Source: a bacterium (GTDB taxonomy: Bacteria > Patescibacteriota > Minisyncoccia > Minisyncoccales > CG1-02-41-26). From it: DNA of 35,187 bases. A model generated the notes under the pieces. That model saw only the letters and a program-made list of their open reading frames with translations. It was not told the origin of the DNA and ran no database searches. The stretch spans positions 1 through 35,187 of the forward strand of contig JAUSHZ010000023.1 in the NCBI GenBank assembly GCA_030648255.1. The letters are read 5' to 3'. Position 1 is the stretch's first letter. The number at the start of each line of letters is the position of its first letter. Of the stretch, positions 11,191-34,781 are shown piece by piece. The position numbers and the translations under genes are program-made.

Positions 11191-11763
11191 ATGGACAATT
11201 TAATTGCAAAAATCTATCAATTACCAAAAACCGTTTTAACAAACAAGGACTTGGCTTTAGTTTGGCAGGAAACAAATCAAAATAATTTAAAATCCAAGAT
11301 AGCTTATTATATAAAGCAAGGGGATTTATTAAAAATAACCAGAGGAGTTTTTGCCAAAGATAAAAACTATAATAAAAGGGAATTAGCCACAAGCTTATAT
11401 TCGCCATCATATATTAGCTTTGAAACTGTTTTACGAGATTCGGGCGTTATTTTTCAGCACTATGAAACAATTTTTGTGGCTGGAAAGTGGACAAAGCAAT
11501 TAAAAATAAACGGACAGAAGTTTTCATTTAGAAAACTAAAAGATGAATTGTTATTTAATTCAACTGATATAATGTTTAAAGATAACTACAACATAGCCAG
11601 CCAAGAGCGATCTTTTTTGGATACTATTTATTTATTTTCAGAATATTATTTTGATAACTTGTCTGGGATTGATTGGGAAAAATGTTTTGAATTAGCTCCA
11701 ATTTATAAAAATAAACAGATGATTGAGCGGCTTAAAAAATACCAAAAAAACTATGTTAAATAA
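11191..11763 (+). CDS. abiEi: AbiEi-family antitoxin / autorepressor
   Basis: The product has 190 residues. An N-terminal winged-helix region (about 10-55, with LTNKDLALVWQ and YYIKQGDLLKITRGVFA) is typical of AbiEi-type antitoxins. The C-terminal part contains YSPSYISFETVLRDSGVIFQ, the conserved core of the family, and SQERSFLDTIYL. In type IV AbiE systems this protein counters the partner nucleotidyltransferase toxin and represses the operon. The toxin gene overlaps its 3' end by 11 nt. There is no SD; a perfect palindrome lies just upstream. The family call is from motif and partner recognition and is fairly secure. Confidence 0.88.
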   Translation: MDNLIAKIYQLPKTVLTNKDLALVWQETNQNNLKSKIAYYIKQGDLLKITRGVFAKDKNYNKRELATSLYSPSYISFETVLRDSGVIFQHYETIFVAGKWTKQLKINGQKFSFRKLKDELLFNSTDIMFKDNYNIASQERSFLDTIYLFSEYYFDNLSGIDWEKCFELAPIYKNKQMIERLKKYQKNYVK

Positions 11764-12466
11764 AGAAAAACATCAGCTTATAATGGGACAGATTTTAAAA
11801 GACATCTACACAGATATTTCAATTGCCCCGCTTTTGGGCTTTAAGGGTGGCACTTGCGCTTATTTTTTCTATGGCCTTCCCAGATTTTCTGTTGATTTGG
11901 ATTTTGATTTATTAAAAAATATTGATGGAAAAAATAAAAAAAATATTTTTGAAAAAATTGTTAACATTATTGGCAAATACGGAAAAGTTAAAGATAGTCA
12001 TATAAAACAATTTACTATTTTCGCGCTTCTTTCTTATGGAGATGAAGACCACAATATTAAAATAGAAATTTCAACTAGGAATTTTATGCCCAATTTGGAA
12101 ACTTTCTATATCTTAAAAGAATATCTTGCTATTTCTATGCTGGTAGCTAAAAAGGAATATCTTTTTGCTGGTAAGTTGGTTGCCTTAACGCAAAGAAGCG
12201 ATATGGCTATGAGAGATGTTTATGATATTTACTATTTTGGAAAAAATAATTGGGATTTTGATAAAAAAATAGTAGAAGTTTTAACTGGGAATAATTTTTC
12301 TGAATGTATCTCAAACGGTATTGATTTAGTGGAATTTATCAAAGATAATCAGCTTTTGGCTGGGTTGGGCGAGTTGGTAAATGAAAAAGAAAAAAGCTGG
12401 ATAAAACAAAATTTAAAAAATGAGGTTTTGTTTATTCTTAAAAACTATCAAAAAGTTATAAAGTAA
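11753..12466 (+). CDS. abiEii: AbiEii-family nucleotidyltransferase toxin
   Basis: From ATG 11753 the product has 237 residues; an upstream in-frame start at 11723 would extend it inside the antitoxin gene and is not needed. The nucleotidyltransferase core is clear: GFKGGTCAYFFYGLPRFSVDLDFDL (about 29-53 of the shorter form) gives the GG..., R and DxD residues. IKIEIS supplies the third strand and FAGKLVALTQRSDMAMRDVYDIYYF the helical motif of this family. AbiEii enzymes arrest growth by GTP-dependent transfer; a related toxin, MenT3, pyrimidylates tRNA. All motifs are intact, unlike the truncated relative at 27.7-28.0 kb. A strong terminator follows. Confidence 0.9.
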   Translation: MLNKEKHQLIMGQILKDIYTDISIAPLLGFKGGTCAYFFYGLPRFSVDLDFDLLKNIDGKNKKNIFEKIVNIIGKYGKVKDSHIKQFTIFALLSYGDEDHNIKIEISTRNFMPNLETFYILKEYLAISMLVAKKEYLFAGKLVALTQRSDMAMRDVYDIYYFGKNNWDFDKKIVEVLTGNNFSECISNGIDLVEFIKDNQLLAGLGELVNEKEKSWIKQNLKNEVLFILKNYQKVIK

Positions 12467-23443: not shown

Positions 23444-23536
23444 ATGAAAAGTATAAATCAAAAACAATCTCTTGGTTTGTTGTTAGGCTTGTTAAGCAAA
23501 CCCCAAGCTGGGAAGGTTTTTGGTGTTATTAAATAG
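23444..23536 (+). CDS. Leu-rich attenuator leader peptide (30 aa)
   Basis: This 30-codon frame starts MKSINQKQS and then reads LGLLLGLL (six Leu codons in eight: CTT, TTG, TTG, TTA, TTG, TTA), ending KPQAGKVFGVIK. The Leu run is placed just before a CCC-AAGCT-GGG hairpin, where a stalled ribosome would disrupt it. The GGGAAGG...TTTTTGG region can then pair with downstream AAAAACTTTAAGCCTCCCC as an antiterminator. This is the layout of classical amino-acid attenuators such as leuL. What is sensed (Leu-tRNA shortage or any slow translation there) is inference. The gene controlled, at 23646, is not a recognised Leu gene. Confidence 0.72.
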   Translation: MKSINQKQSLGLLLGLLSKPQAGKVFGVIK

Positions 23537-25742: not shown

Positions 25743-25781
25743 CTGAGAGTATTTTCTAATCAACAAATGCGTGTGAAATGA
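25743..25781. repeat. IS left terminal inverted repeat
   Basis: Contains the perfect inner AAATGCGTGTGAAATGA and the outer GAGTATTTTCTAATCAA that recurs at 35048-35064 (with C in place of the first G), next to the second transposase. Confidence 0.75.
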
Positions 25782-27045
25782 AGGAAGTGAATTCCATCAT
25801 TTCTTGGGGAATATGTTTAAAATTTTTAAATAATTCTTGTTTTGTTTTTTGCATTCTTTCCGCAAAATCATTGTCGCTCATCTCGTAAGCAATTTTATCA
25901 AGCTGCTCAAAAGGAATATTATCTTTTAAATACTTTTTCGCATTTTCCAAAGACTTTAATTTCTCGTAAGGTGTTTGGTAATCCTCCTGTCTGTAAATCT
26001 TTTTTTCTTTCCCTTTTTTATCTTTAATTATTGTAGCAAATCCACAAGGTCGGTGGTAGTTTAAATAGACATTAAAATACTGCTTGTAAAACTGGTTAAT
26101 GGCTGGAGCAAAGTTTTTTGGTATGTGGATATACCCCATATGTTTTCTAATCACTGCTCCATTTTTGCATTCAGCTAAAGCATTGTCATTGCAGTGTCTG
26201 GCTCGAGACTTGGTCTGCTGGATTAATAATTTATTCAATAATTTTGCCACCACTTTGTTAATATACTCTGATCCATTATCTGAATGAAAATTAATTATCT
26301 TAAAAGGAAACTGTTCTATTAAATCTGCTAATAATGTTTCAAGGTAATACTCGGATATTCTTTCTACTGCTCCCACTATTTCCCATTGGGTTGTTTCATC
26401 GGTAATATTGATGTGGCAAACGCCCTTTTGCTTGCCATAATCTCCTTGATGAACTGAATCCACTCTTAGAAATCCAGGACTGCCACAGGGCTCTGGTTTT
26501 CTTCTCTCGCCAATTGGAATTTTACTGCTCTGAGTTTTTTTAATCGTTAAACAATGTGATCGGTATTGGTTGGTGGCTCTTAAATTGTAAATGTGGGCAA
26601 TGGATATTTGGCTAATGCTCTGGTACTCTTTTTTGTGAAAAATTTCACATTCTCTTTTTAGTATTGTCTTGGTGGCAGGCCCGGATAATCTTTCTTGAGC
26701 GTTGTCTGTTCTAATGAGCAAAGCAATATCTGTTGGGCTGTACTTTTTCGGGAAACGATGCCTCGCGCTTGAGTTTAAAAATATTCTGCCAAAATCTCTT
26801 TTTCTTTTGATTATTCTATCAGCTTGAGATTGGGACAAGCCCGTCATTTTAACAATGTAATTTCTAACAATGCCCTTATCTTTTTTCTTTAAACTGAAAT
26901 ATTTAAATTTAGTTAAAACATCGTTAATCCATTCATACTTTTCTTTTTTAGAAACTGATTTGAATTTAATGGCTGTGTCAATCTTTAAAAATGCTTGAAT
27001 TTGTGGCACAGTGTAAATGTGTGAGTCGTTCATTGTGATAGTCAT
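25756..27045 (-). CDS. IS transposase with rve (DDE) integrase core
   Basis: About 429 residues from ATG 27045; the frame extends to GTG 27072 and ATG 27033 is another option. The N-terminal part (about 1-110) is helical and Lys-rich, with a helix-turn-helix-like GLSQSQADRIIKRKRDFG. The integrase core has the DDE residues: LRVDSVHQGD, INFHSDNGSEYIN and NALAECKNGAVIRKHMG. FNVYLNYHRPCGFAT follows, typical of IS3/IS481-related enzymes. It appears intact. A diverged relative enters the window at the right edge (NEFAEFMQKEKEELF here against NDFAERMQKTKQELF). Confidence 0.9.
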   Translation of the reverse strand: MTITMNDSHIYTVPQIQAFLKIDTAIKFKSVSKKEKYEWINDVLTKFKYFSLKKKDKGIVRNYIVKMTGLSQSQADRIIKRKRDFGRIFLNSSARHRFPKKYSPTDIALLIRTDNAQERLSGPATKTILKRECEIFHKKEYQSISQISIAHIYNLRATNQYRSHCLTIKKTQSSKIPIGERRKPEPCGSPGFLRVDSVHQGDYGKQKGVCHINITDETTQWEIVGAVERISEYYLETLLADLIEQFPFKIINFHSDNGSEYINKVVAKLLNKLLIQQTKSRARHCNDNALAECKNGAVIRKHMGYIHIPKNFAPAINQFYKQYFNVYLNYHRPCGFATIIKDKKGKEKKIYRQEDYQTPYEKLKSLENAKKYLKDNIPFEQLDKIAYEMSDNDFAERMQKTKQELFKNFKHIPQEMMEFTSFISHAFVD

Positions 27046-27080
27046 ATACCCCAATGATAACGATTCACACACTACCGCAC

Positions 27081-27398: not shown

Positions 27399-27740
27399 AT
27401 GAGTAAAGTTACTACTACAAAAAAACAAAAATTACCAGAGGATTTTAAAGATGTGATGTGGGGATATAATTTTAAAAAGATAAACCCCGATGAAAACTAC
27501 GAAAGAATTATCGTCAATACTTTAAATTATGGAACATGGAAACAATGGTGTTGGCTTGCTGATTATTACGGAATAAAAAAACTTAAAAATATTATTCAGG
27601 AAATTCCTGAAAGCGAATTTAGGAATTACCGAGCATTACATTTAATTAGCTTAATTTTGGGTATTAAAAAAATGAAATATGAAAATAGAGGTTTTAAAAT
27701 CCAAGCAATCCAGGCAGCAAGAGAAGCTTTCGTATCCTGA
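27399..27740 (+). CDS. DUF6922-like putative antitoxin of an AbiEii-type pair
   Basis: The product has 113 residues. LPEDFKDVMWGYNFKKINPDENYERIIVNTLNYGTWKQWCWLADYYGIKKLKNII is the core of a small protein family (DUF6922-like by my recognition) that usually precedes AbiEii-type nucleotidyltransferases. The last 20 or so residues may be foreign sequence created by a deletion, because the following toxin has lost its front. Role as antitoxin or regulator is inferred from context. It has no SD and starts right at the end of the structured leader element. Confidence 0.7.
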   Translation: MSKVTTTKKQKLPEDFKDVMWGYNFKKINPDENYERIIVNTLNYGTWKQWCWLADYYGIKKLKNIIQEIPESEFRNYRALHLISLILGIKKMKYENRGFKIQAIQAAREAFVS

Positions 27741-28020
27741 AATTGCCGCGATGAAGGCTTATGCTTTAAACTTTCGCGGGGCAACAAAAGATTACTTTGA
27801 TTTATATTTTATCTTAAAAGAAAAATATTCTAGCTTGCAAGAAATTCGAGAAATAGGAGAAAAAAAATATAAAGCCGAATTTAATTTTAGGCTGTTTTTA
27901 GAGCAATTGCTGTATCTTGAGGGACTAAAAAACAACGAAGTGGAGTTCTTAAAACCAGAACCAACAAAAGAGCAAATGAAAAAGTTTTTTGAGCAGGAGA
28001 TTTCTAAAATAAGGCTTTAA
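27679..28020 (+). pseudogene. Truncated AbiEii-family nucleotidyltransferase toxin
   Basis: The open frame gives 113 residues, but only the part from about 27733 on looks like the family: PEIAAMKAYALNFRGATKDYFDLYFILKEKY followed by a helical C-terminal domain. The catalytic N-terminal half with the GG...DxD motif, intact in the toxin at 11753-12466, is absent. The frame also overlaps the end of the upstream gene by 62 nt, consistent with an internal deletion that joined the two genes. It should have no transferase activity. A residual role in binding the partner protein cannot be excluded. Confidence 0.75.
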
Positions 28021-28043: not shown

Positions 28044-28072
28044 TTGACAAAATTTTTTATATTTGCTAAGTT
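28044..28072 (+). promoter_or_regulatory. Promoter of Phe/Tyr leader cassette (TTTGC-type)
   Basis: TTGACA (28044-28049), 17 nt, TAAGTT (28067-28072) with TTTGC just before it, then exactly 12 nt to the leader ATG. Confidence 0.78.
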
Positions 28073-28084
28073 TAAAATAATATT

Positions 28085-28189
28085 ATGAAAGTTGCGAAAA
28101 CACAAACTAATCAAAAAAGAAATTTCTTCTTTTTTTATTTCTTTTATGTCCCAGCGAGGGAGGTTAGTTTGAGTTTTCTAAAGGATTAA
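28085..28189 (+). CDS. Phe/Tyr-rich attenuator leader peptide (34 aa)
   Basis: The 34-codon frame begins MKVAKTQTNQKRN, then reads FFFFYFFY (28124-28147: six Phe and two Tyr codons in a row) and ends VPAREVSLSFLKD. The aromatic run sits just before a TCCC-AGCGA-GGGA hairpin. GAGGGAGGTTAGTTTGAGTT within the 3' part can pair with 28205-28236, whose other partner is the terminator 3' arm. This is the logic of pheL/pheS-type attenuation: starved ribosomes stall on Phe/Tyr codons, the antiterminator forms, and transcription continues. Downstream lies the Phe/Tyr biosynthetic operon, which makes the codon content meaningful. No SD; the mRNA would be nearly leaderless. Confidence 0.82.
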   Translation: MKVAKTQTNQKRNFFFFYFFYVPAREVSLSFLKD

Positions 28190-28221
28190 AAAATAAAAAA
28201 AAGAATTTAGAAACTTCACAC

Positions 28222-28253
28222 CAGCTTCTCTCCTCTTGAGAGGGCTGTTTTTG
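28222..28253 (+). terminator. Attenuator terminator of Phe/Tyr leader
   Basis: CAGCTTCTCTC-CTCTT-GAGAGGGCTG (10 pairs with one bulge) followed by TTTTTG. The 5' arm overlaps the antiterminator partner strand. Confidence 0.82.
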
Positions 28254-28387
28254 TTTCAGCACATTTCTTAGTTCTTTGTTAATTATAACGAGTCGAGCCG
28301 ACTAATTTGTTTCTAAAATAAATTTGGAGCCAAACTGGTTTGCTTGACTTTAGTTTTCTATTTTTTATTTAAAGGGGGTGAATTTAA

Positions 28388-28540
28388 GTGGGTAAGACAA
28401 GTAGCCTATGCGAGTACTACGTGCTACTTTCTGGCGAAAGCTTTGAGAAGAATCAGGCCTTGGAGTATGCTCCAAGGTCTCGAAAAGAAGCGGCTGAACG
28501 CCGCAAAAAGAGAAGGGGGTCCATCCGTAGACGACGATGA
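28388..28540 (+). CDS. Small Arg-rich protein of the Phe/Tyr leader cassette (50 aa)
   Basis: GTG 28388 is preceded at 7 nt by AAAGGGGGTG (28371-28380), an unusually strong SD for this window. The product has 50 residues, neutral at first (MGKTSSLCEYYVLLSGESF) and then very basic, ending RRKKRRGSIRRRR. Another frame here is open to 28565 but has no start near the SD. The coding DNA contains serial perfect hairpins (AGTAGC/GCTACT; CCTTGGAG-TATG-CTCCAAGG; GCGGC-TGAAC-GCCGC), so part of the conservation may be at RNA level and a structured RNA instead of a protein is possible. The third cassette (34659-34990) has the same arrangement. Confidence 0.55.
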   Translation: MGKTSSLCEYYVLLSGESFEKNQALEYAPRSRKEAAERRKKRRGSIRRRR

Positions 28541-28546
28541 CCCTAT

Positions 28547-28586
28547 GTCTAAGAGAGAGAGGTAGCGTATGCCTCCTCTCTTAGAC
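28547..28586 (+). other. Strong hairpin after the small Arg-rich gene
   Basis: GTCTAAGAGAG (28547-28557) pairs perfectly with CTCTCTTAGAC (28576-28586), extended by GAGG/CCTC after a bulge. AAAAATAAG follows, so there is no T-tract. It starts 6 nt after the stop, leaving aroA 26 nt downstream; it may be an mRNA-end or processing signal rather than a terminator. Confidence 0.7.
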
Positions 28587-28612
28587 AAAAATAAGAAAAG
28601 TTGTTGGTGTTT

Positions 28613-29884
28613 ATGGAAAAAATTGAAATTATGACAATTAAAAAGCAAATTGCGAGCGAGGTGACAATGCCAGGCTCTAAAAGTTTTACCAATCGAGCTT
28701 TGGTTATGGCAGCTTTGAGCAGGGGAGAGAGCCGTATCTTAGGCTATTCCCCCAGCGATGACAGCGAGATTTTAATCATGGCTTTAAAAAAAATAGGCAT
28801 TAAAATTACTAAAACAAAAAAACAAATTATTATTCAAGGCAATGGCGGAGTTTTTAAAGAATTTAATGGCAAAATAAATTTGGGCATGGCTGGCACAGCT
28901 GTGCGATTTTTTATAGCTCTAGCTTGTTTGATTCCTGGTAAAATTATTTTAGACGGCCACGCAAGAATGAGGCAAAGGCCCATGGCTGAATTGGTGAATA
29001 GCTTGCGAACATTGGGAGCTGAAATTAAGTATTTGCAAAAGCAGGGTTGCGTGCCCATAGAAATTACCAAGCCAATTAAGAGAGGCGGGGTGGTGGCGAT
29101 GAGCGGGGGAGTGAGTAGCCAGTATTTTACTGCTTTAATGTTAATTGCGCCTGTTTTAGAAAAGGGGCTTGAAATAAAAGTTATTGGCCAGCAGGTTTCC
29201 AAATCATACATTGATATGACCATAGCTGGTCTAAAAGACTTTGGCGTTAAAGTAAAAAACGAAAATTACAAAAAATATATTGTTGGCCCCAAAGAACGCT
29301 ATAAAGCAATAAGATACGAGGTGGAAGGGGATGCTTCTGGGGCTTCGTACTTTTGGGCCATAGCTGCTGTTAGCAAGAGCAAGATAAAAGTAAAAAATAT
29401 CAACCCAGCCTCTTCACAGGGTGATGTTAAATTTGTTGATTTATTACAAAAAATGGGTTGTAAGGTTGTTAAAAATAAAAAAGAAAAATGGATTGAGGTT
29501 GAGGGAACGGAGCAATTAAAAGCTATTAGGGCTAATATGGAAAGTATGCCCGACACAGCTCAAACCTTGGCAGTGGTGGCTATCTTGGCTGTTGGCAAAA
29601 CAAAAATTACGGGTCTGGCCACCCTAAAAGATAAAGAAACCAATCGGCTCTTGGCTTTGCAAAAAGAATTGGCTAGAATAAATATCAAAGCAAAAATTGG
29701 CTCAGATTATATTATTATTGAGGGAGGTAAGCCAATGGGGGCAGAAATTGAAACCTATAACGATCACCGCATGGCCATGGCTTTTGCCGTGGCTGGGGCA
29801 GTAATCCCGGGCATTAAGATATTAAACCCCAGTGTGGTAAATAAATCATTCCCAGAATTTTGGGAAAAACTAAAAAAATTATGA
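28613..29884 (+). CDS. aroA: 3-phosphoshikimate 1-carboxyvinyltransferase (EPSP synthase)
   Basis: From ATG 28613 the product has 423 residues, the usual length; TTG/GTG codons just upstream and ATG 28631 are alternatives. Conserved motifs: TMPGSKSFTNRALVMAAL for binding, NLGMAGTAVRFF, GHARMRQRPM, SSQYFTALMLIAP, EGDASGASYFW, MPDTAQTLA with the catalytic Asp, and YNDHRMAMAFA. It converts shikimate-3-phosphate and PEP to EPSP. LGMAGTA has Met where most enzymes have Asn, next to the Gly-Ala region linked to glyphosate binding. It leads a tight operon to Phe/Tyr and ends with an ATGA overlap into aroK. Confidence 0.95.
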   Translation: MEKIEIMTIKKQIASEVTMPGSKSFTNRALVMAALSRGESRILGYSPSDDSEILIMALKKIGIKITKTKKQIIIQGNGGVFKEFNGKINLGMAGTAVRFFIALACLIPGKIILDGHARMRQRPMAELVNSLRTLGAEIKYLQKQGCVPIEITKPIKRGGVVAMSGGVSSQYFTALMLIAPVLEKGLEIKVIGQQVSKSYIDMTIAGLKDFGVKVKNENYKKYIVGPKERYKAIRYEVEGDASGASYFWAIAAVSKSKIKVKNINPASSQGDVKFVDLLQKMGCKVVKNKKEKWIEVEGTEQLKAIRANMESMPDTAQTLAVVAILAVGKTKITGLATLKDKETNRLLALQKELARINIKAKIGSDYIIIEGGKPMGAEIETYNDHRMAMAFAVAGAVIPGIKILNPSVVNKSFPEFWEKLKKL

Positions 29885-30429
29885 AGATTATTTTTATTGG
29901 TTTTATGGGCGCTGGTAAAAGCTTTTTTAGCAAGCGGTTTGCTGAACACTTGGGCTTGGAAAGAGTTGAAACAGACGAATTAGCTATAAAAAAAAGCGGT
30001 CGAGCTAGTATTAAAGAAATTTTTGAAAAAGATGGGGAGATAAGATTTAGGGAGCTTGAAATTGAAACTGCCAAAGAGCTTCAAGAAAAAGATAATGTGG
30101 TGATTGACACAGGCGGGGGAGTGGTTTTAAATAAAATAATTTTGGATTATTTAAGAAAAGACGGGGTTGTTATTTTTTTAAAAAGCTCTTTGCCAGCAAT
30201 TGAAGAAAGGTTTAAAGATGATGAAGCGCGACCTTTATGGAAGGATAAAGAAAAATTTAGGCAATTTTATGAATTGCGCTTGCCCCTGTATCAGCAATAC
30301 GCTGATGTGGAAGTGGATACTAGTTCGCCGATTCTCTTTAGTCCTGATGGAAAAAGCCAAGAAATGACCAAAGGGGCAGAAAAGATTTTAGAAGAAATTA
30401 TTAAAAAAATAAAAGCGATAAATTTTTAA
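29881..30429 (+). CDS. aroK: Shikimate kinase
   Basis: ATG 29881 overlaps the aroA stop by ATGA and gives 182 residues; an upstream in-frame start inside aroA is unnecessary. Walker A is GFMGAGKS near the N terminus. The shikimate-binding Asp is in ETDELA, FRELE matches the conserved FR.xE, DTGGGVVL is the GGG loop and RPLW carries the lid Arg. It phosphorylates shikimate, the step before AroA. No aroB, aroD or aroE lies in the window, so where shikimate comes from is open. Confidence 0.94.
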   Translation: MKIIFIGFMGAGKSFFSKRFAEHLGLERVETDELAIKKSGRASIKEIFEKDGEIRFRELEIETAKELQEKDNVVIDTGGGVVLNKIILDYLRKDGVVIFLKSSLPAIEERFKDDEARPLWKDKEKFRQFYELRLPLYQQYADVEVDTSSPILFSPDGKSQEMTKGAEKILEEIIKKIKAINF

Positions 30430-30430
30430 T

Positions 30431-31501
30431 ATGCCAGGAAACACTTTTGGACAATTATTTAAAATAACTACTTTTGGCGAGTCGCATGGATTGGCAGTCG
30501 GTTGCGTTATTGATGGCATGCCCTCTAATTTTGAGCTATCAGAAAGCGATATTCAGCCAGATTTAGACAAAAGAAAGCCAGGACAAAGCCATCTCACCAC
30601 AGCTAGACAGGAAAAAGACCAAGTGAAAATTAAGTCTGGCGTTTTTGAGGGCAAAACAACTGGCGCGCCTATTTTACTTTTAGTGAACAACGAGGATAAG
30701 CGGTCTGAAGATTATTTAGATATTAAAGATTTGTTTAGGCCTTCGCACGCTGACTTTACTTATCAAGCAAAATATGGCATTAGGGATTGGCAAGGAGGGG
30801 GCAGGGCCTCGGCTCGCGAAACTGTGGCTCGGGTGGCCGCTGGCGCTGTGGCTAAAAAATTCCTTCAAGAAAAGTTAAGCGTAGAGTTTTTAACATTCAT
30901 TGAAAGTGTTGGCGAGGTTAAAGCCAGCATAAATTATCAAGAAGTAAAAGCAAGCGATATTGAGGCTAGCTTGGTAAGATGCCCTAGCCCAGAAGATAGC
31001 CAAAGAATGATTGAGCTAATTGAAAAAACAAAAGCAGAAGGGGATTCTATTGGCGGGGTTGTGTTTGGCGTAATTAAAAAAATGCCAAAGGGTTTGGGAG
31101 AGCCAGTGTTTGATAAGCTTTCAGCCGACTTAGCCAAAGCCATGCTTTCCATTGGAGCTGTTAAAGGTTTTGAATATGGCCGTGGTTTTTTAGCTAGCAC
31201 GATGAAGGGTAGCGAACACAACGACGAGTTTTATATAAAAGACAGTCAAGTGAGAACAAAAACTAATAACTCGGGTGGCATACAGGGTGGTATTTCCAAT
31301 GGCGAGGATATTTATTTTCGCGTGGCTTTTAAGCCAACGGCCACTATAGCTAAAAATCAAAATACAATTGGCTTAGATGGCCAAGCAGTGGTTGTTAAGG
31401 CTAGCGGTCGGCACGACCCTTGCGTGGCTATTAGGGCTGTGGCTGTGGTTGAGGCCATGGGGGCTATAACAGTTATGGATCATTATTTGCGCAATAAATA
31501 A
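30431..31501 (+). CDS. aroC: Chorismate synthase
   Basis: The product has 356 residues, standard length, starting one base after aroK. Signatures: GNTFGQLFKITTFGESHG, with the catalytic His; KRKPGQSHLTTAR; FRPSHADFTYQAKYG; GGGRASARETVARVAAGA; and GGIQGGISNGEDIYFRVAFKPT. It uses reduced FMN to turn EPSP into chorismate, the branch point. RHDPCVAIRAVAVVEAM near the C terminus is intact. No SD is present. Confidence 0.96.
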   Translation: MPGNTFGQLFKITTFGESHGLAVGCVIDGMPSNFELSESDIQPDLDKRKPGQSHLTTARQEKDQVKIKSGVFEGKTTGAPILLLVNNEDKRSEDYLDIKDLFRPSHADFTYQAKYGIRDWQGGGRASARETVARVAAGAVAKKFLQEKLSVEFLTFIESVGEVKASINYQEVKASDIEASLVRCPSPEDSQRMIELIEKTKAEGDSIGGVVFGVIKKMPKGLGEPVFDKLSADLAKAMLSIGAVKGFEYGRGFLASTMKGSEHNDEFYIKDSQVRTKTNNSGGIQGGISNGEDIYFRVAFKPTATIAKNQNTIGLDGQAVVVKASGRHDPCVAIRAVAVVEAMGAITVMDHYLRNK

Positions 31502-31524: not shown

Positions 31525-32427
31525 ATGGAAAAACTAAAAAAGATTTGGCTCAATGGCCATTTAATAGATTGGGAAAACGCTCAAATTCATATCTTAACCC
31601 ATACTTTGCATTATGGCAGCGGTGTTTTTGAGGGTATAAGATGTTATAAAACTGCGAAAGGCCCGGCTGTTTTCCGCTTAAAAGACCACATTGAACGGCT
31701 TTTTTATTCGGCAGTTGTTTTGGAAATGGACATACCATTTTCTCAACAGCAAATTGAAGAAGCGGTTTTGCAAACTATAAAAGCAAATGAGCTTGAAGAA
31801 TGTTATATCAGGCCTATTGTATTTTTTGGAGATAAAATGGGCTTAAATCCTAAAGGCGCGCCATTACATATTGCCATAGCTGTTTGGCCCTGGGGAGCTT
31901 ATTTGGGTGGCAAGGAAACAGTTGATGTAAAAATTTCTAAATATATAAGAATGCACCCAGGCTCAGCTGATATTAAGGCCAAGATGTGTGGCTACTACGC
32001 AAATTCTGTTTTAGCTTCATTGGAAGCTCATAAAGAAAACTTTGACGAAGCATTATTCTTAGATTACGAAGGATTTGTGGCTGAAGGCCCGGGTGAGAAT
32101 ATATTTTTCGTGGAACAGGGTAAACTCTTAACGCCAAAAAGCGATAATATCTTGGCTGGTATTACCAGAAACAGTATTTTAAAAATTGCCAATGATTTGG
32201 GCATTGAAACCAAAGAAGAAAAAATATCCCCTGAAAGGGCTAAACTAGCTAGCGAGGCGTTTTTCACTGGCACGGCTGCTGAAGTGTGCCCTATTGGTAA
32301 GATAGACGATGTTTTAATTGGTCAGGCTAAGGTGGGAGAAATTACCTCACAAATTAAAAAAGTTTTTGAACAAGTTATTACAGGTAATAACGACGCTTAT
32401 TTATCTTGGCTAACTTTTCTTAAATAA
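31525..32427 (+). CDS. ilvE: Branched-chain/aromatic class IV aminotransferase
   Basis: The product has 300 residues of fold-type IV. LHYGSGVFEGIRCY is the conserved front; the PLP lysine is in DIKAKMCGYYANSVLA; EGPGENIFFVEQGKLLTP, GITRNSILKIANDLG and FFTGTAAEVCPIGKID complete the IlvE pattern. By sequence it is IlvE. In this operon its probable job is the last step, transamination of phenylpyruvate and 4-hydroxyphenylpyruvate to Phe and Tyr, since no other aromatic aminotransferase is present. The short gap before it holds TAGATAA tandem repeats and no SD. Confidence 0.9.
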   Translation: MEKLKKIWLNGHLIDWENAQIHILTHTLHYGSGVFEGIRCYKTAKGPAVFRLKDHIERLFYSAVVLEMDIPFSQQQIEEAVLQTIKANELEECYIRPIVFFGDKMGLNPKGAPLHIAIAVWPWGAYLGGKETVDVKISKYIRMHPGSADIKAKMCGYYANSVLASLEAHKENFDEALFLDYEGFVAEGPGENIFFVEQGKLLTPKSDNILAGITRNSILKIANDLGIETKEEKISPERAKLASEAFFTGTAAEVCPIGKIDDVLIGQAKVGEITSQIKKVFEQVITGNNDAYLSWLTFLK

Positions 32428-32428
32428 T

Positions 32429-32701
32429 ATGCCAGAATCATTGCAAAAAATGCGTTCGCAAATAGATAAAATCGACCAAGAATTGATTAAGGTTTTAGCT
32501 AAAAGATTTATTGTTACTAAAAAAGTGGGCCAACATAAAATAGACAATCAATTGTCAGCCCAAGATAAAACAAGAGAGCGAGCAATGTTTTTGCAAAGGA
32601 AAAGCTGGGCCAAAGAAAATGGTTTATCAGAAAATTTAGTTAAAGATATTTTTAGTTTAATTATAAAAAAAGTTGTTAAAGACAATGCCAAAACAGATTG
32701 A
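32429..32701 (+). CDS. Chorismate mutase, AroQ-type
   Basis: The product has 90 residues with the all-helical AroQ fold: MRSQIDKIDQELIKVLAKRF.VTKKVGQHK carries the N-terminal Arg, the Arg/Lys pair and the conserved Asp; KTRERAMFLQR and LVKDIFSLIIKK supply the later helices. It converts chorismate to prephenate. In many bacteria this domain is fused to PheA or TyrA; here it is separate but its last 17 nt overlap the start of the TyrA-PheA gene, so the two are translationally coupled. Confidence 0.93.
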   Translation: MPESLQKMRSQIDKIDQELIKVLAKRFIVTKKVGQHKIDNQLSAQDKTRERAMFLQRKSWAKENGLSENLVKDIFSLIIKKVVKDNAKTD

Positions 32702-34382
32702 AAAACCTTTAATAGGAATTGTTGGGGGAGAAGGTAAAATGGGGGAGTGGTTTAGATCTTTTTTTAATAACTTAGGATTAAAAGTTATTATTTCAGACAT
32801 AAACACCCAACTAACTAATATTGAGCTATCTAAAAAGGCTGATATTGTTTTGGTGTCTGTGCCCATTAGAAAAGCAGTTGAAGTGATTAAGGAAATTAGG
32901 GGGGTTGTCAGAAAAGACGCTCTTTTGTGCGATATTATTTCGCTCAAAACAGAGCCAGTTCAAGCAATGGCCATGGCGCATTCAGGTGTTTTGGGCATGC
33001 ATCCTTTGTTCGGGCCGTTATTTCAAGATATGAAAGGCCAAAAAATTGTTTTTTGCCCCATGCAAGCTAAAAGTAACCAGTGGGTTGATTTTTTAAAAGA
33101 TATTTTTATTAAAAATGGTGCTGAGGTAATTGAAATGAGCCCAAAGCAACACGATTTGCAAATGGCCATAGTGCAAGCGCTTACTCATTTTGTGAACGTA
33201 AACTTAGCGCAAACATTTTTTGCTCAAAAATTCAATCCCAACTCGTCCTTTCTAACGCCTGTGTTTCGTTTGCAAAGCTTGATTATTGGCCGGGTTTTGA
33301 GCACCGACCCCCAGCTTTGCTGTGATATAGAAATGGAAAATCCATATTTCCCTAAAGTTTTAGCTCGCTTTGAGCAACAAATCAAAAGTTCAGCTAAAGA
33401 CGTAATTGGCAAAAACAGAAAATCTTTTGTTAAAAAAATAGAAAAAGTTTCGGCTGTTTTAGATGATTTTATAAAAATTTCCCAAAGTAAATCTACCCAA
33501 GTTTTACAGCTTGTCGATAATCAGCCAATAAAAGCAAAAAAAGCGTCAAGTATCAGCCACTTAAAGCAACAAGGCGCTAAAGTTGGTTTTTTAGGTCCAC
33601 AAGGAACATTTTCTCATCAAGCCGCTACTAATCTTTTTCCAAATACTAATAAGTTGATACCTTTTAACGCAATTAGAGAGATTTTTGAGGCAGTTAATAA
33701 TCAAACAATTGACTTTGGGGTAGTGCCCGCAGAAAATACTTTAGGAGGTATTGTGCCAGAAACAATCAATAGCTTAATTGAGTATCCTTTAAAAGTTAGC
33801 GGTTCTTTTGAGTTGGGCATACATCATTGTCTTTTGTCTAGGCTAAAGGATAAAAAAGATTTACAAATTATTAAAACGCATAAGCAGGCGTTGTTGCAAT
33901 GCGAAAAGTTTCTGCGAGAAAATCTGCCACAAATTAAAACAGAGGTTTCTTTGAGCACCACTTCAGCTATTGAAGAAACAAAAGACAAGTACACAGGCTT
34001 TATTGCTCCATTTTCAGCCGCCAAGGTTTATGGGTTAAATGTTTTAGCAAAAGATATTGAAGACGCCAAAGGAAATGTTACTAAATTTTACATTATTACC
34101 AATGTTTTAAATAAGGCCATACAGCAAAAACTAGGCAACAACAAAACTTTGCTTTTGCTGGCTGTTTATAATAGAGTGGGCGTTTTAAGGGATATTTTAC
34201 AGGTTTTTGCCAATAACGGGCTTAACCTCTCTTCTTTGCATTCCGTGCCCTCTAAGTTGCAGCCCTGGGATTATTTTTTCTTTATGGAGGTTGATAATCA
34301 TTATCAAAGCTTGGCTATTAAAAAAACTCTAAAAGATATTGCCAAATATTGCACGGTAATTCGCGAAATAGGTGCGGGTTAG
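32685..34382 (+). CDS. tyrA-pheA: Bifunctional prephenate dehydrogenase-prephenate dehydratase (TyrA-PheA-ACT)
   Basis: From ATG 32685 the product has 565 residues; TTG 32673 is a less likely start. Residues 1 to about 290 are TyrA: GIVGGEGKMGEW for NAD(P), VSVPI, LGMHPLFGP with the active-site His, QALTHFVN with the second His. From about 298 to 480 is prephenate dehydratase: AKVGFLGPQGTFSHQA, VVPAENTLGGIV, SFELGIHHCLL and NVTKFYII in place of the usual TRF. An ACT domain ends the protein (about 486-565). Its RVGVLRDIL matches the GALV region, but the usual ESRP is HSVP, so Phe feedback may be weak. One chain thus sends prephenate to both Tyr and Phe. Related TyrA/PheA fusions with chorismate mutase are known in some archaea. 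Confidence 0.93.
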   Translation: MPKQIEKPLIGIVGGEGKMGEWFRSFFNNLGLKVIISDINTQLTNIELSKKADIVLVSVPIRKAVEVIKEIRGVVRKDALLCDIISLKTEPVQAMAMAHSGVLGMHPLFGPLFQDMKGQKIVFCPMQAKSNQWVDFLKDIFIKNGAEVIEMSPKQHDLQMAIVQALTHFVNVNLAQTFFAQKFNPNSSFLTPVFRLQSLIIGRVLSTDPQLCCDIEMENPYFPKVLARFEQQIKSSAKDVIGKNRKSFVKKIEKVSAVLDDFIKISQSKSTQVLQLVDNQPIKAKKASSISHLKQQGAKVGFLGPQGTFSHQAATNLFPNTNKLIPFNAIREIFEAVNNQTIDFGVVPAENTLGGIVPETINSLIEYPLKVSGSFELGIHHCLLSRLKDKKDLQIIKTHKQALLQCEKFLRENLPQIKTEVSLSTTSAIEETKDKYTGFIAPFSAAKVYGLNVLAKDIEDAKGNVTKFYIITNVLNKAIQQKLGNNKTLLLLAVYNRVGVLRDILQVFANNGLNLSSLHSVPSKLQPWDYFFFMEVDNHYQSLAIKKTLKDIAKYCTVIREIGAG

Positions 34383-34443: not shown

Positions 34444-34542
34444 ATGAAATCTTTAACTCGAGCTAATTTCCAATACACCAAATGGACTATTTGTTCCCCA
34501 TTATGCGGGAAGGAGATTAGTTTGAGCTTTGAAAATAAATAA
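34444..34542 (+). CDS. Attenuator leader peptide of third cassette (32 aa)
   Basis: The 32-codon frame starts MKSLTRANFQYTKWTICSP and ends LCGKEISLSFENK; the end is like that of the Phe/Tyr leader (REVSLSFLKD). A single Trp codon precedes TTCCC-CATTATGC-GGGAA by a few codons, where stalling would free GGGAAGGAGATTAGTTTGAG to pair with CTTCAAACTAGCCCCCTTCC downstream. No amino acid is strongly enriched; Trp, Cys or Thr are candidates, or general slowing of the ribosome. The antiterminator pairing is the clearest of the three cassettes. Confidence 0.72.
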   Translation: MKSLTRANFQYTKWTICSPLCGKEISLSFENK

Positions 34543-34565
34543 ACAAAACTTTAAAACTTCAAACT

Positions 34566-34607
34566 AGCCCCCTTCCTTTGTACAGAGGAAGGGGGCTTTA
34601 GCTTTTT
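34566..34607 (+). terminator. Attenuator terminator of third cassette
   Basis: Perfect 12-bp stem AGCCCCCTTCCT / AGGAAGGGGGCT with an 8-nt loop, followed by TTAGCTTTTT. Its 5' arm is also complementary to GGGAAGG in the leader. Confidence 0.92.
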
Positions 34608-34658: not shown

Positions 34659-34781
34659 TTGGGAAATCCAAGACCTACGTGGCAATGTGCTTCTTGTGGC
34701 AGATCGAACAAGGACAATGTTAGATTTTGTAAGTGTGGACTATCAAAGCATGATTCTCGAAACAAAAGAATAAGGAGATAA
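34659..34781 (+). CDS. Small zinc-ribbon protein (40 aa)
   Basis: TTG 34659 follows AAAGGGGTGA (34645-34653) at good SD distance. The 40-residue product has WQCASCGRSNKDNV and RFCKCGLSKH, i.e. C-x2-C-x10-C-x-C. Trp before the first Cys and the Asn spacer recall RanBP2-type zinc ribbons, though the last pair is CxC rather than CxxC. The C terminus is basic (RNKRIRR). Nucleic-acid or ribosome binding is inferred. It ends 2 nt before the next small gene. Confidence 0.68.
   Translation: MGNPRPTWQCASCGRSNKDNVRFCKCGLSKHDSRNKRIRR

Follow-up and report, generated by a model that had tools for sequence, protein, structure and literature searches.

The leader in front of the aromatic amino acid genes of genome G000 very probably controls transcription by ribosome-mediated attenuation, with charged tRNA-Phe and tRNA-Tyr as the signals. 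It is located in the analyzed window, a stretch of 35,187 nt to which all coordinates without a locus name refer (features of the leader and the operon are on the + strand), and the genome of the window, G000, comprises 846,593 bases in 33 contigs. The leader is one member of a leaderless attenuator scaffold that recurs within this order and whose sensor codons vary with the controlled genes. Attenuation by phenylalanine and tyrosine had been proposed in the initial annotation of this DNA, and it is now supported by the computed switch, by covariation, by the matching of sensors and genes in relatives, and by the leader of genome G013. We infer that the leader is translated, that ribosomes stall on it, and that read-through leads to co-transcription as far as aroA.

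The leader ORF MKVAKTQTNQKRNFFFFYFFYVPAREVSLSFLKD (28085-28189, from the list of open reading frames) is kept in the same-genus genomes G001 and G002. It contains eight aromatic codons in a row, FFFFYFFY, at 28124-28147 (TTC TTC TTT TTT TAT TTC TTT TAT), as the initial annotation had stated; they lie within the predicted anti-termination zone, and they are exclusively Phe and Tyr codons, Trp codons being absent from the leader. This is the only run of at least eight F/Y/W codons in the six frames of the window, and such runs occurred in 0 of 100 windows simulated with an order-1 Markov model and in 1 of 100 with an order-2 model. Two promoter-like hexamers precede the ORF, a -35 hexamer TTGACA (28044-28049), found in the sequence and by a consensus scan of 54 leaders, and a weak -10 hexamer TAAGTT (28067-28072), found by the same scan 12 nt upstream of the ATG. 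No Shine-Dalgarno site was found upstream of the ATG, and the transcript is predicted to be nearly leaderless, with a start a few bases 5' of this codon. The distance between the end of the -10 hexamer and the ATG had a median of 10 nt in the 51 of 54 leaders that had a promoter score of at least 8, the starts being predicted, and a Shine-Dalgarno-like string 5' of the leader ORF was present in 2 of the 54. By inspection, an apparently frame-split ORF (27399-28020) lies just 5' of the leader, and an AbiE-like pair (11191-12466) and an integrase-like ORF (25756-27072) were seen elsewhere in the window.

Folding of 28085-28265 (-42.5 kcal/mol, z -2.5) yielded the 1:2 hairpin, with the arms 28103-28111 and 28163-28171 defined by folds and covariation, followed by the terminator. 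The intrinsic terminator (28222-28256) has the arms 28222-28232 and 28238-28247 and a T-run at 28248-28256; a sequence scan had first detected a terminator-like stem with a T-run at 28226-28244, and the arms were redrawn on the basis of the covariance alignment. The terminator annotated behind the leader was thereby confirmed in stem and T-run, whereas the annotated position of the aromatic run, 5' of a pause hairpin, had to be corrected, as the run actually lies in the loop of the 1:2 hairpin. When 28148-28265 was folded without the 5' part, which mimics a stalled ribosome, region 2 (28156-28182) paired with region 3 (28206-28232), which contains the whole 5' arm of the terminator, and the terminator was lost. 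Antiterminator and intrinsic terminator are mutually exclusive in the computed folds, and the 1:2, inner, and terminator helices covary.

In the ribosome model, the RNA was free to pair from the base 13 nt beyond the beginning of the A-site codon onward, and the folds were calculated at equilibrium and 37°C without kinetics. For the window leader the terminator probability was 0.93 both in the absence of a ribosome and at positions between codon 22 and the stop codon. It fell to 0.05-0.27 when the A-site was placed on any of codons 14-21, which correspond precisely to FFFFYFFY; it was also low at codons 4-6, 5' of the run, and about 0.2-0.5 at codons 11-13. With a ribosome front of 10 or 16 nt instead of 13 nt the anti-termination zone moved by one codon. 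The following mechanism can be envisaged: RNA polymerase would start a few bases 5' of the ATG, and the ribosome would load onto the 5'-terminal AUG, no Shine-Dalgarno site being involved. If Phe and Tyr are ample, it would clear FFFFYFFY and cover region 2, so that region 3 would enter the terminator and transcription would stop near 28256. With a shortage of Phe or Tyr the ribosome would stall on the run, the 5' arm of the 1:2 hairpin would be masked by it, and region 2 would pair with region 3 and sequester the 5' arm of the terminator, and, with the terminator blocked, the polymerase would continue into a small ORF and the operon leading from shikimate to Phe and Tyr.

A search with the leader peptide recovered the same-genus leaders of G001 (E 4e-12) and G002 (E 1e-13), in which the aromatic run, the frame, the stems, and the promoter are kept and the changes are synonymous or F/Y-preserving. 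Beyond the genus the peptide search alone was too weak as a family finder, and its weak matches L006, L009, L010, and L020 were unrelated and located on other genes. A DNA pattern scan of named genomes returned nine stretches, two cyanobacterial, one from Verrucomicrobiia, and the rest from Paceibacterota-type MAGs. A first covariance model, built from 5 leaders, yielded more elements in 60 relatives, and a second model (R2) was built from 26 leaders. Of the 247 genomes of the order, 57 contained R2 elements. In a class sample, 15 of 383 genomes had one, 6 of the 15 being outside the order, and in a phylum sample of 379 genomes no element was found except in G000 itself (1/379); the class and phylum numbers are minimum values, since scoring was limited to 7 to 12 candidates in each genome. 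A few weak matches look spurious, e.g., L168, L171, and L186. The window leader matched R2 with 152.2 bits and three helices, a match by construction, since the leader is part of the model. In the alignments, both of which were fitted to the model, 24 of 27 base pairs had changed on both sides among the 26 leaders and 26 of 27 among 82 leaders. No Rfam family reached its gathering cut-off within the window, and a T-box or another known riboswitch was therefore rejected.

The 82 elements were classed automatically with hand corrections into 52 with aromatic sensors, 8 with Cys, 3 with Leu, 18 others, and 1 without a sensor; L096, L154, L155, L095:4210, L177, L101, and L165 had been missed or left unclassed by the automatic picker and were re-picked by eye, and the 52 aromatic elements consist of 49 automatic and 3 re-picked ones. 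Folding tests were applied to elements with at least 6 aligned terminator columns (L092 and L057, for example, have fewer), i.e., to 55 of the 82 elements, 46 of them aromatic, for the comparison of stalled and complete translation and to 60 elements for the codon-zone test. In 42 of 46 aromatic leaders, stalling at the first sensor codon gave a computed terminator probability below 0.5, and in all 46 the value was above 0.5 after complete translation. When the stretch between ribosome and terminator was shuffled, the median probability in the stalled state was 0.76, compared to 0.00008 for the real sequences, which were lower in 45/46 cases. The last anti-terminating codon was situated a median of one codon before the last aromatic codon (47 aromatic leaders). 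Without a ribosome the terminator was favored in just 19 of 46 aromatic leaders, and therefore the basal behavior varies among the members. For G000 and G002 the folds predict a functional switch, and for G001 a weaker one (probability 0.76 upon stalling at the first sensor codon, mean 0.60).

The reading frame was analyzed for the 49 leaders automatically classed as aromatic. Their best stretch of nine codons contains on average 6.4 aromatic codons in frame, versus 2.4 and 3.2 in the other two frames, and the leader frame is the highest in 46 of 49, so that the aromatic runs exceed what U-richness gives. A Leu sensor class found no support in the folding test, as just 3 of its 18 sensor codons fell within the anti-terminating zone.

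An aromatic-pathway gene was recognized behind 22 of the 52 aromatic leaders and none behind the other 30. Type-I DAHP synthase follows L056, L097, L144, L145, L149, L152, L154, L157, L166, and L167, prephenate dehydratase (PDT) follows L139, L150, L153, L162, and L189 and, by eye, L094, a PDH-PDT fusion follows L141, and ADTH synthase, above the curated cut-off, follows L092, L093, and L100. An aro operon follows the leader in the window and also in G013 (74% identity of AroA). Orthologous aro operons with leaders devoid of aromatic codons had been named in the initial annotation as evidence that would speak against attenuation; the leader of the orthologous operon of G013 contains FYFYFFF. 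Behind 7 of the 8 Cys leaders a Cys gene is present: cysteine synthase (CysK) behind L164, L170, L172, and, by eye, L177, CysRS behind L160 and L095:4210 and also behind L164 and L172, and SepRS behind L096, with 338 bits below the cut-off of 381. The eighth Cys leader, L095:536, has a tRNA-Cys gene about 27 nt downstream. Taken together, there are 22 aromatic-aromatic pairs, 7 Cys-Cys pairs, and no crosses (Fisher p 6e-7), of which 27 of 29 genes were identified by search and those behind L094 and L177 by eye, while the sensors of L092 and L057 were set by hand; the statistics are post hoc, because the genes had been recognized by eye before testing. Within the aromatic set the sensor codons follow the pathway branch: all 15 leaders that precede DAHP synthase, ADTH synthase, or whole-operon units have Tyr or Trp codons, versus just 1 of the 6 that precede prephenate dehydratase (p 3e-4; post hoc), a comparison that excludes the PDH-PDT fusion L141, whose sensor has Trp and Tyr.

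The reverse view started from the genes. An element lies no more than 600 nt upstream, in the same orientation, at 10 of the 24 places with type-I DAHP synthase in 243 genomes of the order (in G217, G220, G018, G040, G114, G182, G198, G210, G211, and G178) and at 3 of 37 PDT places (G209, G230, G238), while a further three PDT places are in an operon behind an element (G000, G013, G205). Of the 243 genomes, 204 encode CysRS, and few of these copies are behind an element, which indicates that the switch is an option and not a rule.

The operon of G000 has the gene order from AroA to TyrA-PheA that the initial annotation had given, each gene being above its Pfam cut-off. It encodes the EPSP synthase AroA (28613-29884; PF00275), the shikimate kinase AroK (29860-30429; PF01202), the chorismate synthase AroC (30431-31501; PF01264), an IlvE-type aminotransferase (31525-32427; PF01063, TIGR01122), a chorismate mutase (32429-32701; PF01817), and a TyrA-PheA fusion with an ACT domain (32673-34382; PF02153, PF20463, PF00800, PF01842). 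Matches for type-I DAHP synthase, ADTH synthase, or the N-domain of shikimate dehydrogenase were not found in the G000 genome, and therefore the operon looks like a module from shikimate to Phe and Tyr, together with a transaminase, that has no visible shikimate supply. We infer that G000 takes up shikimate from neighboring cells. The leader is predicted to sense just Phe and Tyr, the two products of the module.

Between the T-run and the ATG of aroA (28613) are 357 nt with one small ORF at 28388-28540, in good agreement with the roughly 360 nt and one small gene given earlier. The ORF encodes 50 aa, has a Shine-Dalgarno site, and did not match any Pfam family. The interval also contains a -10-like TATAAC (28284-28289) directly followed by a long hairpin (28290-28350; z -6.4), which are kept in G013, and a strong hairpin without a T-run between the small ORF and aroA (28546-28587; z -9.5), at the matching position of which G013 has a hairpin of different sequence. 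The small ORF, the two strong hairpins, and the conserved -10-like box leave room for a promoter independent of the attenuator or for a processing site. We consider it likely that aroA is controlled by read-through. An unlikely alternative is that the attenuator is real and has the small ORF as its main target, while a separate promoter near 28284-28296, with a stabilizing 5' hairpin, serves the aro operon, which would simply be a neighbor. It would explain why G000 and G013, a genus-divergent pair with this operon, have the TATAAT/TATAAC block and the long hairpin in common; box and hairpin occur only in these two among 189 loci, and the motif CTAATTTGTTTCT was found at 7 of the 189, all of which are copies of the G000 and G013 places. 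It would also fit the leaders of G001 and G002, which precede small ORFs only, and the fact that the first ORF with a Shine-Dalgarno site encodes fewer than 150 aa behind 39 of the 82 elements. However, the TATAAC has no good -35 hexamer and is absent from the list of the consensus scan, and in many relatives the element is immediately followed by the gene of an aromatic enzyme. The two strong hairpins could also be taken to indicate translational control, with leader translation opening or closing a downstream Shine-Dalgarno site and the hairpin with the T-run as a processed remnant. This is very improbable, as the helix that competes with the terminator occludes the terminator's 5' arm and not a Shine-Dalgarno site, the terminator helices covary over 82 elements, and T-runs end the elements that were inspected.

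The leaders of G001 and G002 indicate that this type of leader is not tied to the aro operon alone. In both genomes searches for DAHP synthase, PDT, ADTH synthase, and shikimate dehydrogenase had no matches; a close aroA was not found in G001, and the single partial match in G002 (25% identity) could be another enzyme of the family. The leader is kept in front of small ORFs, which resemble each other (35% identity, E 2.5e-13). More generally, neither type-I DAHP synthase nor PDT was matched (1e-10) in 24 of the 45 genomes of the order that have an aromatic leader, as judged from family searches covering 243 of 247 genomes; the 24 include misses, because G207 has PDT. These 24 genomes, and the missing upstream markers of the shikimate pathway in G000, could mean that the leader is a vestige in a reduced genome on which selection no longer acts. 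We regard this as most unlikely, since the run, the frame, the stems, and the promoter are kept in G001 and G002 and the switch is predicted to be functional in G000 and G002. That a U-rich stretch encodes F and Y in front of a terminator by chance, as might be suspected in an AT-rich window, has a negligible probability in view of the frame specificity (46/49), the simulated windows (0-1/100), and the homologs in the same position and frame.

The leaders without a pathway, which are often followed by small uncharacterized proteins, may be either remains of lost operons or switches that now report starvation. A lone ferredoxin-like N-domain of DAHP synthase is encoded behind the aromatic leaders L142 and L165 (above the cut-off) and L138 and L146 (below it). 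Cys-rich, zinc-ribbon-like small proteins are encoded behind the leaders of L147, L148, L089, and L092 and at 34659-34781 of the window, and at least two CxxC motifs are present in 6 of the 39 small ORFs behind elements versus 5 of 260 controls (p 0.001; post hoc). Anti-TRAP was rejected as a name for these zinc small ORFs (15.3 bits, cut-off 32).

Several further elements were observed. A second scaffold element of the window is located just 3' of the aro operon (leader MKSLTRANFQYTKWTICSPLCGKEISLSFENK, 34444-34542; model match 34458-34607). Its leader has a mixture of Thr, Lys, Ser, and Cys codons, and two small ORFs follow, one of them zinc-ribbon-like below the cut-off; relatives of this leader (L054, L055, L058, L090, L098) precede a tRNA-Glu(CTC) gene in the same orientation. 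A third, Leu-rich leader with a terminator (MKSINQKQSLGLLLGLLSKPQAGKVFGVIK, 23444-23536) is kept in G001 and G002 and precedes an ORF of 317 aa without a Pfam match. In G017 six element matches, some overlapping, lie within about 2 kb (L090:4408-6541) upstream of an HMGL-like enzyme; aromatic as well as Leu-rich leaders and double terminators occur there. An element with a single His codon in its leader precedes HisG at L159, and one with HHH precedes an unknown ORF at L176.

In G019 poly-Cys leaders are found at three sites. One stands directly before a tRNA-Cys(GCA) gene (L095:423-509, - strand), in which inspection indicated a long variable arm, another before a second tRNA-Cys gene (L095:3791-3864, - strand) and CysRS, and the last before SepRS, followed by a third tRNA-Cys gene (L096:6002-6075, + strand). 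Only the second and the third of the three were found with the Rfam tRNA model. At L095:3870-4190, in the interval that separates leader and tRNA, inspection suggested an interrupted tRNA together with a GIY-YIG-type ORF. It would be unusual for a tRNA gene to be controlled by an attenuator that responds to the tRNA's own amino acid, and no attenuated tRNA gene was described in the titles and abstract openings returned by an open-access literature search.

We tentatively suggest, as a possibility that is somewhat short of probable, that the scaffold is one inherited and re-addressable amino acid starvation switch of the Paceibacterota, in which the sensors were swapped (Phe/Tyr/Trp, Cys, perhaps Leu, mixed polar) and the RNA frame was kept, and which drives enzymes, aminoacyl-tRNA synthetases, tRNA-Cys, and, where the pathway was lost, small starvation-reporting proteins. 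If this is true, reduced and mostly uncultured bacteria retain a control amino acid by amino acid via an RNA switch, and the address of the switch can be read from the leader, which would constitute a sequence-based assay of what the cells sense. The persistence of leaders where pathway markers are missing would mean that attenuation is used beyond biosynthesis, and the application of such a covariance model to all Patescibacteria would suggest functions for anonymous small proteins.

The pheL attenuator of Escherichia coli forms alternative terminator and antiterminator structures. Its Phe-rich leader attenuates pheA, which encodes prephenate dehydratase, as described in a review (PMC11802643). 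The window leader shares with pheL-pheA the Phe-rich leader, the competing structures, and the predicted control of a prephenate dehydratase, and the nearest leader family in Rfam is Phe_leader (RF01859), with 24.9 bits and E 0.08 below the cut-off of 55. In contrast to pheL, it has no Shine-Dalgarno site and contains also Tyr codons, its scaffold occurs also with Cys codons, and its operon extends from shikimate kinase and EPSP synthase to TyrA-PheA. The same review, citing Neshat 2014, describes the aroR leader of Corynebacterium glutamicum, with Phe-Tyr-Phe, upstream of aroF (DAHP synthase), for which Phe alone and not Tyr matters (PMC11802643). Aromatic leaders of the scaffold precede DAHP synthase, too, but they belong to another lineage, have up to eight consecutive aromatic codons, and one scaffold serves several amino acids. 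In mycobacteria leaderless poly-cysteine short ORFs regulate downstream genes (PMC9031893 citing Canestrari 2020), and a study of candidate Cys peptides reports no conserved terminator hairpin for them (PMC1262725). The scaffold likewise has Cys-run leaders, predicted to be leaderless, but with a covarying terminator and antiterminator, and it also carries aromatic sensors. The attenuators leuL, trpL, ilvL, and others of Streptomyces lividans are transcribed leaderless and, in the passages on them, are described separately without mention of a shared scaffold (PMC8079986), whereas one scaffold is found here. For Ca. Parcubacteria, SepRS, SepCysS, and a bacterial tRNA-Cys in two operons have been described, and leaders or attenuation are not mentioned in the passages concerned (PMC5424206). 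Open-access literature on attenuation in Patescibacteria, the Candidate Phyla Radiation, or Parcubacteria was not found. The mechanism is thus of a known kind, while, to our knowledge, the lineage, the shared scaffold with exchangeable sensors, the tRNA-Cys context, and the leaders that are kept without the pathway are new.
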